Source: a virus. Taken from it: 34,657 nt of DNA. The position numbers were made by a program, and so were the translations under genes. Location of the stretch: IMG/VR virus record IMGVR_UViG_3300042904_000257, positions 1 to 34,657 of that record; one strand, written 5' to 3'. Positions 11,042 to 34,588 of the stretch are shown here, one piece after another; position 1 is the first letter of the stretch, and each line of letters opens with the position of its first letter. The notes below the pieces were generated by a model. The model did not search any database and was not told the origin of the DNA. It was given only the letters and a program-made list of their open reading frames with translations.

Positions 11042-11776
11042 GTGCCTAGCCAACGACAGCCAACGGACCGCACCTACCCGTGGGAGACGCAGTTCGTGGC
11101 CAACATGAAGAACCTTCGCGAAGCAAGGGGGATGACTCAGACAGACCTAGCTAAGGCACTTCGATCGGAAGGTCTCCCTTTCCATCAGCAGACGATTCAG
11201 AGGATTGAGTCGGGGGAGCGGCCGGTCAGGCTGAACGAGGCCCACCTGATCGCGGGCTTCTTTCGAGTCAAACCGGAGACCATGACCGAGTCTTTCGTGG
11301 CGACAGACAATCACCTACTATGGGAGATGGAGCGAGTAATAAATGAATCGGTGATATTGGTCGAATCGGTTGTTGAAAGCTATGACGAGTGGACCGATAG
11401 AGTTTCTTCTTTTTTTGTGCAGCTCGAAGAAGTGATCGACCGTGAAGGAGTCTACGACTTCGAACTACTCCCGTACCCTGCGAAGGTCGGACTAGCCTTC
11501 GCCAAACACCTGCTAGCCACCTCACGAAATATCGAAGAGGGCTACCACGGTATTCTTCAACGCTACGGAGACAGGCAAGGCGAGACCCGTGAGGACCGCT
11601 GGATGGTCGCAGATCCGGGTGTCACGGTATACGACAGCATGAGAGAACTGCTGCGCATATTTGAGCACGAACGCCTTGAAGAGCTCTCCCGCGAAAACGC
11701 TTACTCACTGCATTCGAACTTGCGGATATATATCGACAAGAACACTAGGCAGGCGCAAGGCGAGAGCAACGGATAA
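11042..11776 (+). CDS. XRE-family immunity repressor
   Basis: A 244-aa protein from the GTG at 11042; a TTG at 11027 would overlap operator 2 and is less likely. Residues about 17-80 form an XRE helix-turn-helix (NMKNLREARGMTQTDLAKAL, QQTIQRIESGERP). The rest is mostly helical and acidic (ESVVESYDEWTDRVSSFFVQLEE), with no peptidase motif, so it is not a LexA-like self-cleaving repressor. The centre (about 11330-11430) is much richer in A and T than its surroundings. It stands directly upstream of the integrase in the same direction. It most likely represses the leftward early promoter through the two 16-bp repeats. Confidence 0.75.
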   Translation: MPSQRQPTDRTYPWETQFVANMKNLREARGMTQTDLAKALRSEGLPFHQQTIQRIESGERPVRLNEAHLIAGFFRVKPETMTESFVATDNHLLWEMERVINESVILVESVVESYDEWTDRVSSFFVQLEEVIDREGVYDFELLPYPAKVGLAFAKHLLATSRNIEEGYHGILQRYGDRQGETREDRWMVADPGVTVYDSMRELLRIFEHERLEELSRENAYSLHSNLRIYIDKNTRQAQGESNG

Positions 11777-11797: not shown

Positions 11798-13141
11798 ATG
11801 GGCTTCACAAAAGACCTCTGGACAGCTCCGGAGAAGCCGCTGGGAGTAGTCGCCGACCGTGTGGCCGAGTCGGGAGAGAAGTGTCGATGCGGCAAGCCCG
11901 CTGTGAAGGTGTGCACCGTCAAGGGTGGTGCCGACGTGGCCTGGTGCGGCGAGAACAAGCGTCTCCCTAACGCCAGGTACGGCAAGGGCAAGCGGTGGTT
12001 GGCAGTGTGGCACGACCCGGACGGGAACGAGCGCACGAAGGCGTTCGCCAAGAAGACGCCAGCCGACCTGCACTGGCAGGCCCAAGAGACGGACGTCGAG
12101 CGCGGCGACTACCGCGATCCGAAGGCGGGCCGGGAGAAGTTCGCCGAGGTCGCCGAGCGGTGGTTCACGTCCCGTAAGGTCGACCCGTCCAGTGCGATCA
12201 AGTACGAGTCCGTCTACCGCCTGCACGTCGAGCCGGTGTTCGGGCGCAAGTCGGTGAAGGCCATCCGGCCGTCCGACGTGTCAACGTTCCAGACGCAGCT
12301 CGGCGAGCGGTTCGGCCCGTCGACCGTGGCCGCCGCGCGCCTGGTCGTCGTCGGAGTGCTGGACCTCGCGCTAGCCGACGACCTGATCAAGAAGAACCCG
12401 GCGACGAACAAGGTCGTCCAAAGCATCGACACGGAGCCCGCGGGCAAGGTGGTCGCGTGGTCCGACGACGTGGTGTTCACCGTCATCGACGCGCACCCCG
12501 ACCTGCTCCGCGCCATGCCGACGCTCGCCGCCACGTGCGGCCTGCGTGAGGGCGAGCTGTTCGGCATCGCCGAGGAAGACATCGACTTCGAGGCCGGCGT
12601 GGTGCACATCCGGCGACAGCTCAAGAAGCTCGGCCGCGACTACGTGTTCGGGCTTCCCAAGAACGACTCGGAGCGGACAGTGCCGCTCCCCAAGGGCACG
12701 GCGCAGGTACTCCGCGAGCACATCCGGAAGTACTCGCCGCAGCCGCTCACGCTGCCATGGGAGAAGCCGACCGGCGCCCCGGTGACGCACCGCATCTTGT
12801 TTCGGTGGATCGACGGCGGGCACATGAAGCCGCGTGCCTACTCCGAGACGGTGTGGAAGCCGGCGATCGCCGCGGCTGGGGTCATCCCGGCGCCGACGAA
12901 GGACAACCGGGGACGGAGGCGGTACGTCACCACGCGCAAGGAGGGGACGCACCAGCTCCGCCACTACTTCGCGTCGGTGATGCTGGCCGACGGCGTGAAC
13001 GTCAAGGAGCTCGCCGAGTACATGGGCCACCACGACGCGGCATACACACTGAAGAAGTACGTGCACCTGCTGCCCGACTCGCACGACCGCGCCCGGTCGG
13101 CGATGGACGCCCGCATGTTCCGGCCGCGCGCCGTGGGCTGA
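11798..13141 (+). CDS. int: Tyrosine integrase
   Basis: A 447-aa phage integrase. Catalytic residues are R250 (ATCGLREGELFG), K288 in the beta hairpin (GLPKNDSERTVPL), H385 and R388 (THQLRHYF), H411 or H412 (YMGHHDAAYT) and Y421. Residues about 60-105 (GKRWLAVWHDPDG) form the arm-DNA-binding AP2-like domain, and about 112-205 the core-binding SAM-like domain. Ahead of these, C29, C31, C39 and C50 look like an added zinc-ribbon-like segment. It follows the repressor by 21 bp, so both may be expressed in the lysogen. The 3' end points at attP, the usual layout. Confidence 0.95.
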   Translation: MGFTKDLWTAPEKPLGVVADRVAESGEKCRCGKPAVKVCTVKGGADVAWCGENKRLPNARYGKGKRWLAVWHDPDGNERTKAFAKKTPADLHWQAQETDVERGDYRDPKAGREKFAEVAERWFTSRKVDPSSAIKYESVYRLHVEPVFGRKSVKAIRPSDVSTFQTQLGERFGPSTVAAARLVVVGVLDLALADDLIKKNPATNKVVQSIDTEPAGKVVAWSDDVVFTVIDAHPDLLRAMPTLAATCGLREGELFGIAEEDIDFEAGVVHIRRQLKKLGRDYVFGLPKNDSERTVPLPKGTAQVLREHIRKYSPQPLTLPWEKPTGAPVTHRILFRWIDGGHMKPRAYSETVWKPAIAAAGVIPAPTKDNRGRRRYVTTRKEGTHQLRHYFASVMLADGVNVKELAEYMGHHDAAYTLKKYVHLLPDSHDRARSAMDARMFRPRAVG

Positions 13142-13188: not shown

Positions 13189-13507
13189 ACGGAGCGGAAC
13201 GGAATATAGACGGAACAGGCGAGGGGACCGTGATCGAGACGGCGCGAGGCGACGACCGGTACCAGACACCAGCCGCCGCCTCTGACCTGCGAGGACTTAG
13301 CCGTTCAGGAGTGCGCGCGACATGACCACGCGCTGGATCTGGTTCGTGCCCTCGTAGATCTGGGTGATCTGTGGCGAGCACTTCTCCCACCTGCGAAGAC
13401 ACCCTCGGAAACCTACTCTGAGCAGCCATTTTATGTTGGTGACCGTTGGCTGCGATTGACGGCCGTTGGCTGTCTCACGGAACAGGGACGGAACACGGAG
13501 CGGAACA
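13189..13507. other. attP: attP region with arm-type repeats
   Basis: The core is the acyl-CoA dehydrogenase 3' end at 13297-13370. CGGAAC repeats lie on both sides: 13195 and 13211 on the int side; 13478, 13489 and 13501 on the other, spaced 11-12 bp apart, about one helical turn. These are good candidates for integrase arm sites. Two direct copies of CCGTTGGCTG at 13443-13452 and 13463-13472, 20 bp apart, could bind an excisionase. Recombination here would place int at one prophage end and the DUF397/XRE pair at the other. Assignment is by pattern. Confidence 0.7.
13297..13370 (-). pseudogene. Acyl-CoA dehydrogenase 3' end (att core)
   Basis: On the minus strand this reads ITQIYEGTNQIQRVV, then MSRALLNG and a TAA stop. 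This is the highly conserved C-terminus of actinobacterial acyl-CoA dehydrogenases. Upstream (13371 onward) the reading becomes unrelated, so only the gene end is present. A phage carrying the end of its target gene restores the host reading frame on integration, as many phages do in tRNA genes. The shared core is therefore at most about 74 bp. Confidence 0.85.
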
Positions 13508-13555: not shown

Positions 13556-13753
13556 TCAGCCGTCGAACCGGCCGCCCTTCACCTTGGCGAGGAACGCCCC
13601 AAGGGTTCCCGGCGCCCATGCGAGCGTCGGCCCATCGGGGTTCTTCGAGTCGCGCACGGCCGCACGGGTGGTAGTCAGCGCCACCTCGACACAGTTGCCG
13701 TTCTCACCACTGGATCTGCTCGACTTGCGCCAAACGAGGGGGAGGTCGGTCAT
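13556..13753 (-). CDS. DUF397-domain protein
   Basis: A 65-aa protein, starting at the ATG at 13753 with AAAGGGG upstream; an in-frame TTG two codons earlier is less likely. It shows the DUF397 pattern from end to end: WRKSSRSSGENGNCVEVAL, VRDSKNPDGPTL, then AFLAKVKGGRFDG. DUF397 proteins are small, specific to Actinobacteria, and usually paired with an XRE-DUF5753 partner, as here. In Streptomyces such pairs include the WhiJ-type systems that influence development. The pair lies beside attP and is likely expressed in the lysogen. Confidence 0.9.
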   Translation of the reverse strand: MTDLPLVWRKSSRSSGENGNCVEVALTTTRAAVRDSKNPDGPTLAWAPGTLGAFLAKVKGGRFDG

Positions 13754-13765
13754 GGCCAACCCCTT

Positions 13766-14638
13766 TCAGTTGTTGCTCCCAAGTGCGCTCACCAGCGTAA
13801 CCAGCGCCGACCGTGTCTCCTCCGGCGAGAGCGCCGCAGCGCTGATCTGGTCGAACAGCTCAACGTGCGCGTCTACCTCGTGTTGCTTCTCGTAGTAGGT
13901 CGCCGACAGCCACGCCTCGGCGTATGCCACGTCGAATCCTGGCGCCTCGTCGAACCTCAGCACCGAGAACGCGTAGCCCATGCCTCGGTAAGGTCCGGCC
14001 GACTTGGGCATGAGCTGGATCGAGACGTGCGGTAGGCGCGAGACGCTGACCAGGTGTTCGACCTGCACTCGGGTCACTTCAGGACCACCGATGGACCGAT
14101 CGAACACGGCCTCGTCAAGGATCACCCGGAGACGCGGCGGACTGGACTCGACCAGTCGTCGCTGCCGTTCGGTTCGCAGGTCGACCGCCCGCCGCAACTC
14201 TTCCTCGGTGGCGTCCGGCTTCGACACCAGCCGGACGGCGCGAACGTACTCGGGAACCTGAAGTAGGCCGGCGACAAACGCCGTCTCCAGCGTCCACACC
14301 TCCGTGGCGTACGACTCCAGCTTGATGTAGTCGCGGGCGAAGTCAGCTGCGACGTCGGCGTGCGCGACGAGCAGGCCGCGTTGATTGCTCTCCCTCGCCA
14401 TCCGCAACAACATGTCCAACTCGGGCGAGGTCACGCCGTAAGCACCCGCGAGGAGACGCACGTTCTTCTCCAGGATCGCCTGCTCCGCATTCTCGATCTT
14501 CGAGATGGTCGACCGGCTCAAGCCGGTGAGACGCACGGCGTCGTCCTGCGTCATGCGCGCTTCGTCTCGCAACTCGGCGAGCCGATACGCCAACTGGCGG
14601 CGTCGGATCGGCGGGACCGGCTTGGGGTCTTCGGGCAT
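13766..14638 (-). CDS. XRE-DUF5753 regulator (WhiJ-like)
   Basis: A 290-aa protein of the family's usual length. Residues about 14-70 are an XRE helix-turn-helix (LAELRDEARMTQDDAVRL, LSRSTISKIENAEQAIL). Residues about 105-285 match DUF5753 (ARDYIKLESYATEVWTLET, VPGLLQ-like GLLQVPEYVRAV, RLRVILDEAVFDRSIGG, HVSIQLMPKSAGPYRGMG). It is followed after 12 bp by the DUF397 gene; the two form an operon. Family members are known in Streptomyces as regulators of antibiotic production and sporulation acting with small partners. Here the pair is phage-borne. The 14-bp tandem repeat at 14717-14744 is its likely operator. Confidence 0.9.
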   Translation of the reverse strand: MPEDPKPVPPIRRRQLAYRLAELRDEARMTQDDAVRLTGLSRSTISKIENAEQAILEKNVRLLAGAYGVTSPELDMLLRMARESNQRGLLVAHADVAADFARDYIKLESYATEVWTLETAFVAGLLQVPEYVRAVRLVSKPDATEEELRRAVDLRTERQRRLVESSPPRLRVILDEAVFDRSIGGPEVTRVQVEHLVSVSRLPHVSIQLMPKSAGPYRGMGYAFSVLRFDEAPGFDVAYAEAWLSATYYEKQHEVDAHVELFDQISAAALSPEETRSALVTLVSALGSNN

Positions 14639-34172: not shown

Positions 34173-34588
34173 GACGCACCCGCCACCTTCGCCGCCCGGC
34201 GAGCAGCCAGCTCGTCCAGCTTGTCCGCCTCCCGCGGGGCGTCCCTCAACGCGTCTTCCATCGCGGCCCGCAGCTCCCTCGAGAGCGAGGCCGCACCAGC
34301 GGCGGTGTGCTCCGACGTCGCCAACAGCCGGGCCAGCAGGAGAACGTGCTCCCCCTCCGGTGTGCCGAGCCGTTCGGCGACCTCCAGTCGGCGCCGATAC
34401 GACGCGACCAGTTGCGGCTCGTGCTGCGCCCGCGTCGCCGGAGGCTCGGCCTCAGGGGTCGGCAGCTTGATCACGCGCGGGTTCGGCCGGTTCCGCGGCG
34501 GGCGGCACTCCTCGCAGTACTTGCGTGGCCGCGCGGAGCCCTTCTGCGGCGGGATGACCGCCCCACAGTCGGCACAGGTGCGCTCCAC
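34169..34588 (-). CDS. Terminase small subunit, zinc-ribbon type
   Basis: A 139-aa protein from the GTG at 34588. The N-terminal zinc ribbon has C5, C8, C25 and C28 (CADCGAVIPP, YCEECRP). A disordered Pro-rich linker and a helical C-terminus follow (EGEHVLLLARLLATSEHT, ASLSRELRAAMEDALRDAPRE, LDELAARRAAKVA). It directly precedes and overlaps the large subunit gene and adjoins cos. It would bind the packaging site and hand DNA to the motor. The assignment rests on position and build, since small terminases are poorly conserved. Confidence 0.75.
   Translation of the reverse strand: MERTCADCGAVIPPQKGSARPRKYCEECRPPRNRPNPRVIKLPTPEAEPPATRAQHEPQLVASYRRRLEVAERLGTPEGEHVLLLARLLATSEHTAAGAASLSRELRAAMEDALRDAPREADKLDELAARRAAKVAGAS

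Follow-up and report, generated by a model that had tools for sequence, protein, structure and literature searches.

The window, that is the whole stretch of 34,657 nucleotides analysed here, is a tailed phage whose terminase, portal, protease, capsid, tape measure and endolysin-like genes run leftward from the right end. It also contains a tyrosine integrase gene pointing toward a short segment, hereafter the core, which encodes the end of an acyl-CoA dehydrogenase gene on the minus strand; the integrase end and the core are separated by 156 bp. The features of the locus are given below, where G1438 and G1469 are lysogens of related phages and the classes refer to dehydrogenase targets.

11798 to 13141, plus strand: tyrosine integrase P0003, 447 amino acids (PF00589, PHROG integrase families, relatives at dehydrogenase 3' ends).
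13189 to 13217, plus strand: left-arm repeats ACGGAGCGGAAC and GACGGAACA, candidate arm-type integrase sites also found in the G1438 and G1469 left arms.
13280 to 13296, plus strand: CTCTGACCTGCGAGGAC, a conserved element directly before the core and candidate integrase-binding site, also present in Kribbella classes I and II.
13297 to 13370, minus strand: predicted attP core, the last 24 codons (23 residues and stop) of an acyl-CoA dehydrogenase gene (translation, host alignments, lysogen direct repeats).
13356 to 13370, no strand assigned: probable crossover region AGATCTGGGTGATCT, an imperfect inverted repeat AGAT-N7-ATCT (aligned sites).
13371 to 13495, no strand assigned: predicted right (P') arm of attP, with a homologue in two lysogens that adjoins the displaced dehydrogenase tail at attL.
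13384 to 13400, plus strand: CTCCCACCTGCGAAGAC, a second imperfect copy, across the core, of the element preceding it; CCACCTGCG is retained in the attL arms of some lysogens.
13477 to 13506, plus strand: right-arm repeats ACGGAACAGGGACGGAACACGGAGCGGAAC, candidate arm-type integrase sites that recur in attL of G1438.

The integrase was matched by PF00589 (E=6.9e-17) and by PHROG integrase families, so that a tyrosine recombinase does adjoin the core, and candidates for its R..HxxR..H..Y residues can be read in CGLREGE, HQLRHY, GHHD and KKYVHL. Its relatives in phage and plasmid records, one of them a Streptomyces plasmid, are all below 40% identity. No match to the 11-17 kb region of the window was found among 50,697 phage records, no exact core match in IMG/VR, and neither an integrase nor the core among the capsid relatives in IMG/VR. 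On the right arm, adjoining attP, a regulator of the XRE/DUF5753 type (PF19054) occupies 13557-14638 on the minus strand with a small DUF397-like gene downstream. Homologous regulators were observed in the related prophages G1438, where the gene lies beside attL, and G1277, and the pair may constitute a module for lysogeny or stability. The sole tRNA gene of the window, a tRNA-Met (anticodon CAT) at 2462-2536 on the minus strand amid phage genes, is distant from the core, which argues against a tRNA-gene att site.

Read on the minus strand from 13370 to 13297, the core translates to ITQIYEGTNQIQRVVMSRALLNG followed by a TAA stop at 13299-13297, which is the C-terminus of an acyl-CoA dehydrogenase. 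In a first, broad draw of actinobacterial genomes, the segment was matched in 219 of 396 Actinomycetota-level genomes (E<=1e-3), and the best 30 of those matches, as well as the best ones found later, all translate as acyl-CoA dehydrogenase C-termini; a chance origin of the core is therefore excluded. Searches were then restricted to the best-matching group, a family that looks like Pseudonocardiaceae. Among 297 such genomes, four encode this C-terminus letter for letter. Their genes (L164, L165, L168 and L169) are identical to the core at 68-69 of 74 bases, and each of the 5-6 differences is synonymous. Outside the core the resemblance falls to about chance level, with 16-18 identical bases out of 60 on the gene-interior side and 19-24 out of 60 past the stop. 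The core is thus common to the chromosome and its flanks are unrelated (68-69/74 against 16-24/60).

The initial annotation had proposed, from the letters of the window, that 13297-13370 is an attP segment carrying the minus-strand end of a dehydrogenase gene and nothing further upstream. The coordinates proved exact, since the stop lies at one limit, identity ends at the other and both flanks are at chance level; the protein end was recovered in the four host genomes, and the window holds no further dehydrogenase sequence upstream of the segment. Host identity stops sharply at 13370 in all of the dehydrogenase genes aligned, which number in the dozens. The host gene with about 74 bp of identity that had been anticipated was found as far as long identity is concerned, but the best match across 1994 genome scans reached 69/74 and none was identical at 74/74.

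The junctions were read in lysogens of relatives rather than of the window phage itself. An integrase search of the best-matching family yielded two near full-length relatives, G1438 (76% identity) and G1277 (71%), together with several shorter ones. G1438 is a 36-kb prophage that resembles the window in its integrase (76%), terminase (79%), portal (55%), protease (62%) and capsid (40%). It is collinear with the window when the latter is opened at 13297-13370, running from 13.4 kb to 34.6 kb and then from 0.1 kb to 13.1 kb, and the matched blocks follow in the order 13.8, 21.8-24.3, 28.8-34.6, 0.1-3.1 and 10.3-10.9 kb and the integrase. The prophage is bounded by 105-bp direct repeats that are 94% identical. 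The attR repeat, about 120 bp past the integrase, is the last part of an acyl-CoA dehydrogenase gene that has stayed intact (a 412-codon frame with acyl-CoA dehydrogenase domains), and the far repeat is a stub running into a homologue of the right arm of the window (73% identity over window 13334-13495). This dehydrogenase belongs to class III (ILDIFEGTQQIQQ) and is a different paralog from the one represented by the window core, which is of class II. In the same prophage, matches to window positions 34567 and 84 are only about 190 bp apart. Because of this spacing, positions 1 and 34657 appear to be neighbours in the phage and the contig to be close to a complete genome.

The second lysogen, G1469, is a 6.5-kb remnant located at a class II gene, the window's own class, and the C-terminus of its integrase is 75% identical. 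Its attR lies at an intact class II dehydrogenase, and its attL consists of a 70-bp repeat (91%) followed by a window-like right arm, with 73% identity over window 13296-13485. In both relatives, attL and attR are direct repeats with the phage arms on the predicted sides, and the attR frame is complete, in the same frame through 3' end and stop, with Acyl-CoA_dh_1 extending to the end. Integration at an acyl-CoA dehydrogenase gene with restoration of its end, as the initial annotation had suggested, is supported by these two lysogens, and its expectation of related integrases at dehydrogenase 3' ends was borne out by one full prophage and one remnant.

Other relatives use other genes. In G1277 (locus L206), the target is a small gene that does not encode a dehydrogenase, in whose product no Pfam family was found, and a 65-bp repeat lies near the integrase end. 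In G1338 (L213, about 8.6 kb), another integrase relative, a 29-bp perfect repeat corresponds to the apparent end of a hisC-type aminotransferase gene. Since the 71% identical integrase of G1277 uses another gene, a dehydrogenase target is not provable by integrase similarity alone; it is the window core itself that shows the target.

In parallel, integrases about 46-61% identical to that of the window were found in many Kribbella genomes. The stop codon of an acyl-CoA dehydrogenase gene on the opposite strand adjoins 26 of 31 such loci (16 of class I, 3 of class II and 7 of class III), and the remaining five are not beside a dehydrogenase. The distance from integrase to stop is usually 118-173 bp and is greater with a partial integrase match or an intervening element. 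Two elements, of 27.7 kb in K. sandramycini and of 19.4 kb in K. jiaozuonensis, are delimited by distant copies of the dehydrogenase tail, the latter with a further copy. Extra tail copies and two tandem integrase genes were observed at L003 of K. jiaozuonensis (11299-11380 and 11915-11996) and at L127 (G601 contig C321), which suggests that several elements are stacked at one dehydrogenase gene at these two loci. Integrases of the Nocardioides type, about 36% identical, are not beside dehydrogenase ends, and the motif described below is absent there.

The same segment is also used by an element with a more distant integrase (34% identical), the 9.9-kb element of G1292, which is bounded by a 74-bp direct repeat (97%) coinciding with window 13297-13370. 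Relatives of this genome carry an undivided dehydrogenase gene with both flanks close together. At 13987-14060 of L160 (G1292:C24), the attR-side end of the element by the dehydrogenase stop has a hairpin similar to that following the host gene. Because the hairpins are alike, the element may replace the terminator too, and element and host terminators look interchangeable.

Alignment of the sites on the inner end of their repeats brought out a sequence, TCG[AT]AGA[TC]-N7-ATCT, common to class I, II and III sites and to the G1277 target, whose two halves form an imperfect inverted repeat around 7 central base pairs. Lambda-type integrases use a 7-bp overlap between inverted half-sites. In most events, attL and attR diverge at the end of this motif or a few bases after it, and later in G1438. 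A slightly relaxed form follows 26 of the 31 Kribbella integrases and none of 18 outgroup loci, and the motif is absent at the hisC-like site of G1338. Window 13356-13370 is therefore likely to be the crossover, and 13297-13355 would be the part kept to restore the gene. A crossover elsewhere in the 74-bp core, the motif being kept just because it encodes dehydrogenase residues, is rather unlikely. The motif does overlie the codons of the conserved I-[FY]-E-G-T, so that its conservation is expected among dehydrogenases, and in two Kribbella events the attR copy departs from it by 1-2 bases; the unrelated target of G1277, however, carries the motif too (TCGTAGACGTGCACGATCT), in an identical position with respect to its junction.

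Repeats of the ACGGAAC type are found on both arms of the window and in the arms of the lysogens. Together with CACCTGCG repeats, they flank the core on both sides and are candidate arm sites. Such flanking repeats speak against the core being a scrap of host gene acquired passively, by imprecise excision or transduction, with the true attP elsewhere. Phages do carry host gene fragments and no perfect host match was obtained among the genomes searched, but the collinear prophage G1438 and the remnant G1469 are opened at exactly the core and have a copy of the dehydrogenase tail at either end, and this origin is very improbable. That the conserved peptide end belongs to a functional small phage protein and is no att site is barely conceivable, as the minus-strand frame is open for 34 codons upstream of 13370 but runs into unrelated phage sequence, the resemblance in protein is lost precisely where the DNA junction lies, at 13370, and this very tail forms the direct repeat in the lysogens.

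A sharply bounded captured gene end, same-lineage lysogens whose attL and attR lie at dehydrogenase 3' ends with an intact gene at attR and the right arm at attL, and a collinear gene order are best explained if 13297-13370 is the attP core, which is almost certainly the case. The integrase (11798-13141), if active, would recombine this core with the 3' end of a host class II dehydrogenase gene encoding the same protein sequence, ITQIYEGTNQIQRVVMSRALLNG and stop, and strand exchange would most likely take place within AGAT-N7-ATCT at 13356-13370. Since all sequence between that crossover and the stop is present in the phage, integration would give the dehydrogenase gene a fresh 3' end of the same sense at attR, the junction next to the integrase, and only a short stub of the displaced host end would persist at attL.

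A quickly built tree places the integrase of the window together with those of G1438 and G1277 (support 99), with three different targets among them. When labelled by target, this tree, in which the placements of G1292 and P1338 are unsure, requires at least nine target changes. Going beyond the initial annotation, the sequences compared here thus indicate that the integrase lineage is not bound to one dehydrogenase gene and that at least three paralogs are used. Dehydrogenase paralogs have the short motif in common because the conserved I-[FY]-E-G-T is encoded by it, and several paralogs may be usable because each would contain the same crossover-like sequence within its DNA for I-[FY]-E-G-T-x-x-I-Q. 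It seems somewhat probable that the clade recognises a TCGWAGAY-N7-ATCT-like sequence imposed on high-GC DNA by the dehydrogenase fold via its C-terminal I-[FY]-E-G-T-x-x-I-Q, which would let phages switch between paralogs and host families by taking up a new gene tail while the integrase stays much the same. If true, an enzyme superfamily serves as a family of att sites, as tRNA genes do. The window, G1438 and G1277 provide a clean case of integrase target choice and change, with three genes and one short crossover-like sequence. In addition, the sites indicate places for vector integration in Pseudonocardiaceae-like and Kribbella strains that would leave the host metabolic gene intact.

In the open-access literature searched, no report was found of tyrosine integrases using acyl-CoA dehydrogenase 3' ends or hopping between paralogs, and a Streptomyces coelicolor island that came up there turned out to be unrelated. 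The only acyl-CoA dehydrogenase site found there is attB-21 in MAB_1851, a fadE gene of Mycobacterium abscessus occupied by prophiT49-3 of cluster MabJ (PMC9934374). It likewise involves an actinobacterial prophage within an acyl-CoA dehydrogenase gene, but it depends on a serine integrase and lies at about position 280 of 1140 bp, so that the gene is probably inactivated and there is no 3'-end restoration (PMC9934374). Closer in mechanism is e14 in icd of Escherichia coli K-12, for which PMC6379469, citing Hill et al. 1989, establishes that an integrating element can supply a protein-coding gene with a substitute 3' end. The two cases have in common an insertion near the 3' end of a metabolic gene, a replacement end borne by the element and a displaced stub; e14 differs in its isocitrate dehydrogenase gene, its 163-bp segment, its proteobacterial host and its single target gene instead of several paralogs. 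In the same way, tRNA-gene att sites, such as argU for DLP12 (PMC6379469) or tRNA-Thr for attB-2 of M. abscessus (PMC9934374), have as duplicated core the 3' end of one gene from a conserved family, and the gene is restored. The target of the window, on the contrary, belongs to a protein-coding family, and its core owes its conservation to the codons of a protein motif. Gene-restoring att sites in protein-coding genes are already known; what appears new is a clade hopping among paralogs of one enzyme family, and occasionally to other genes.
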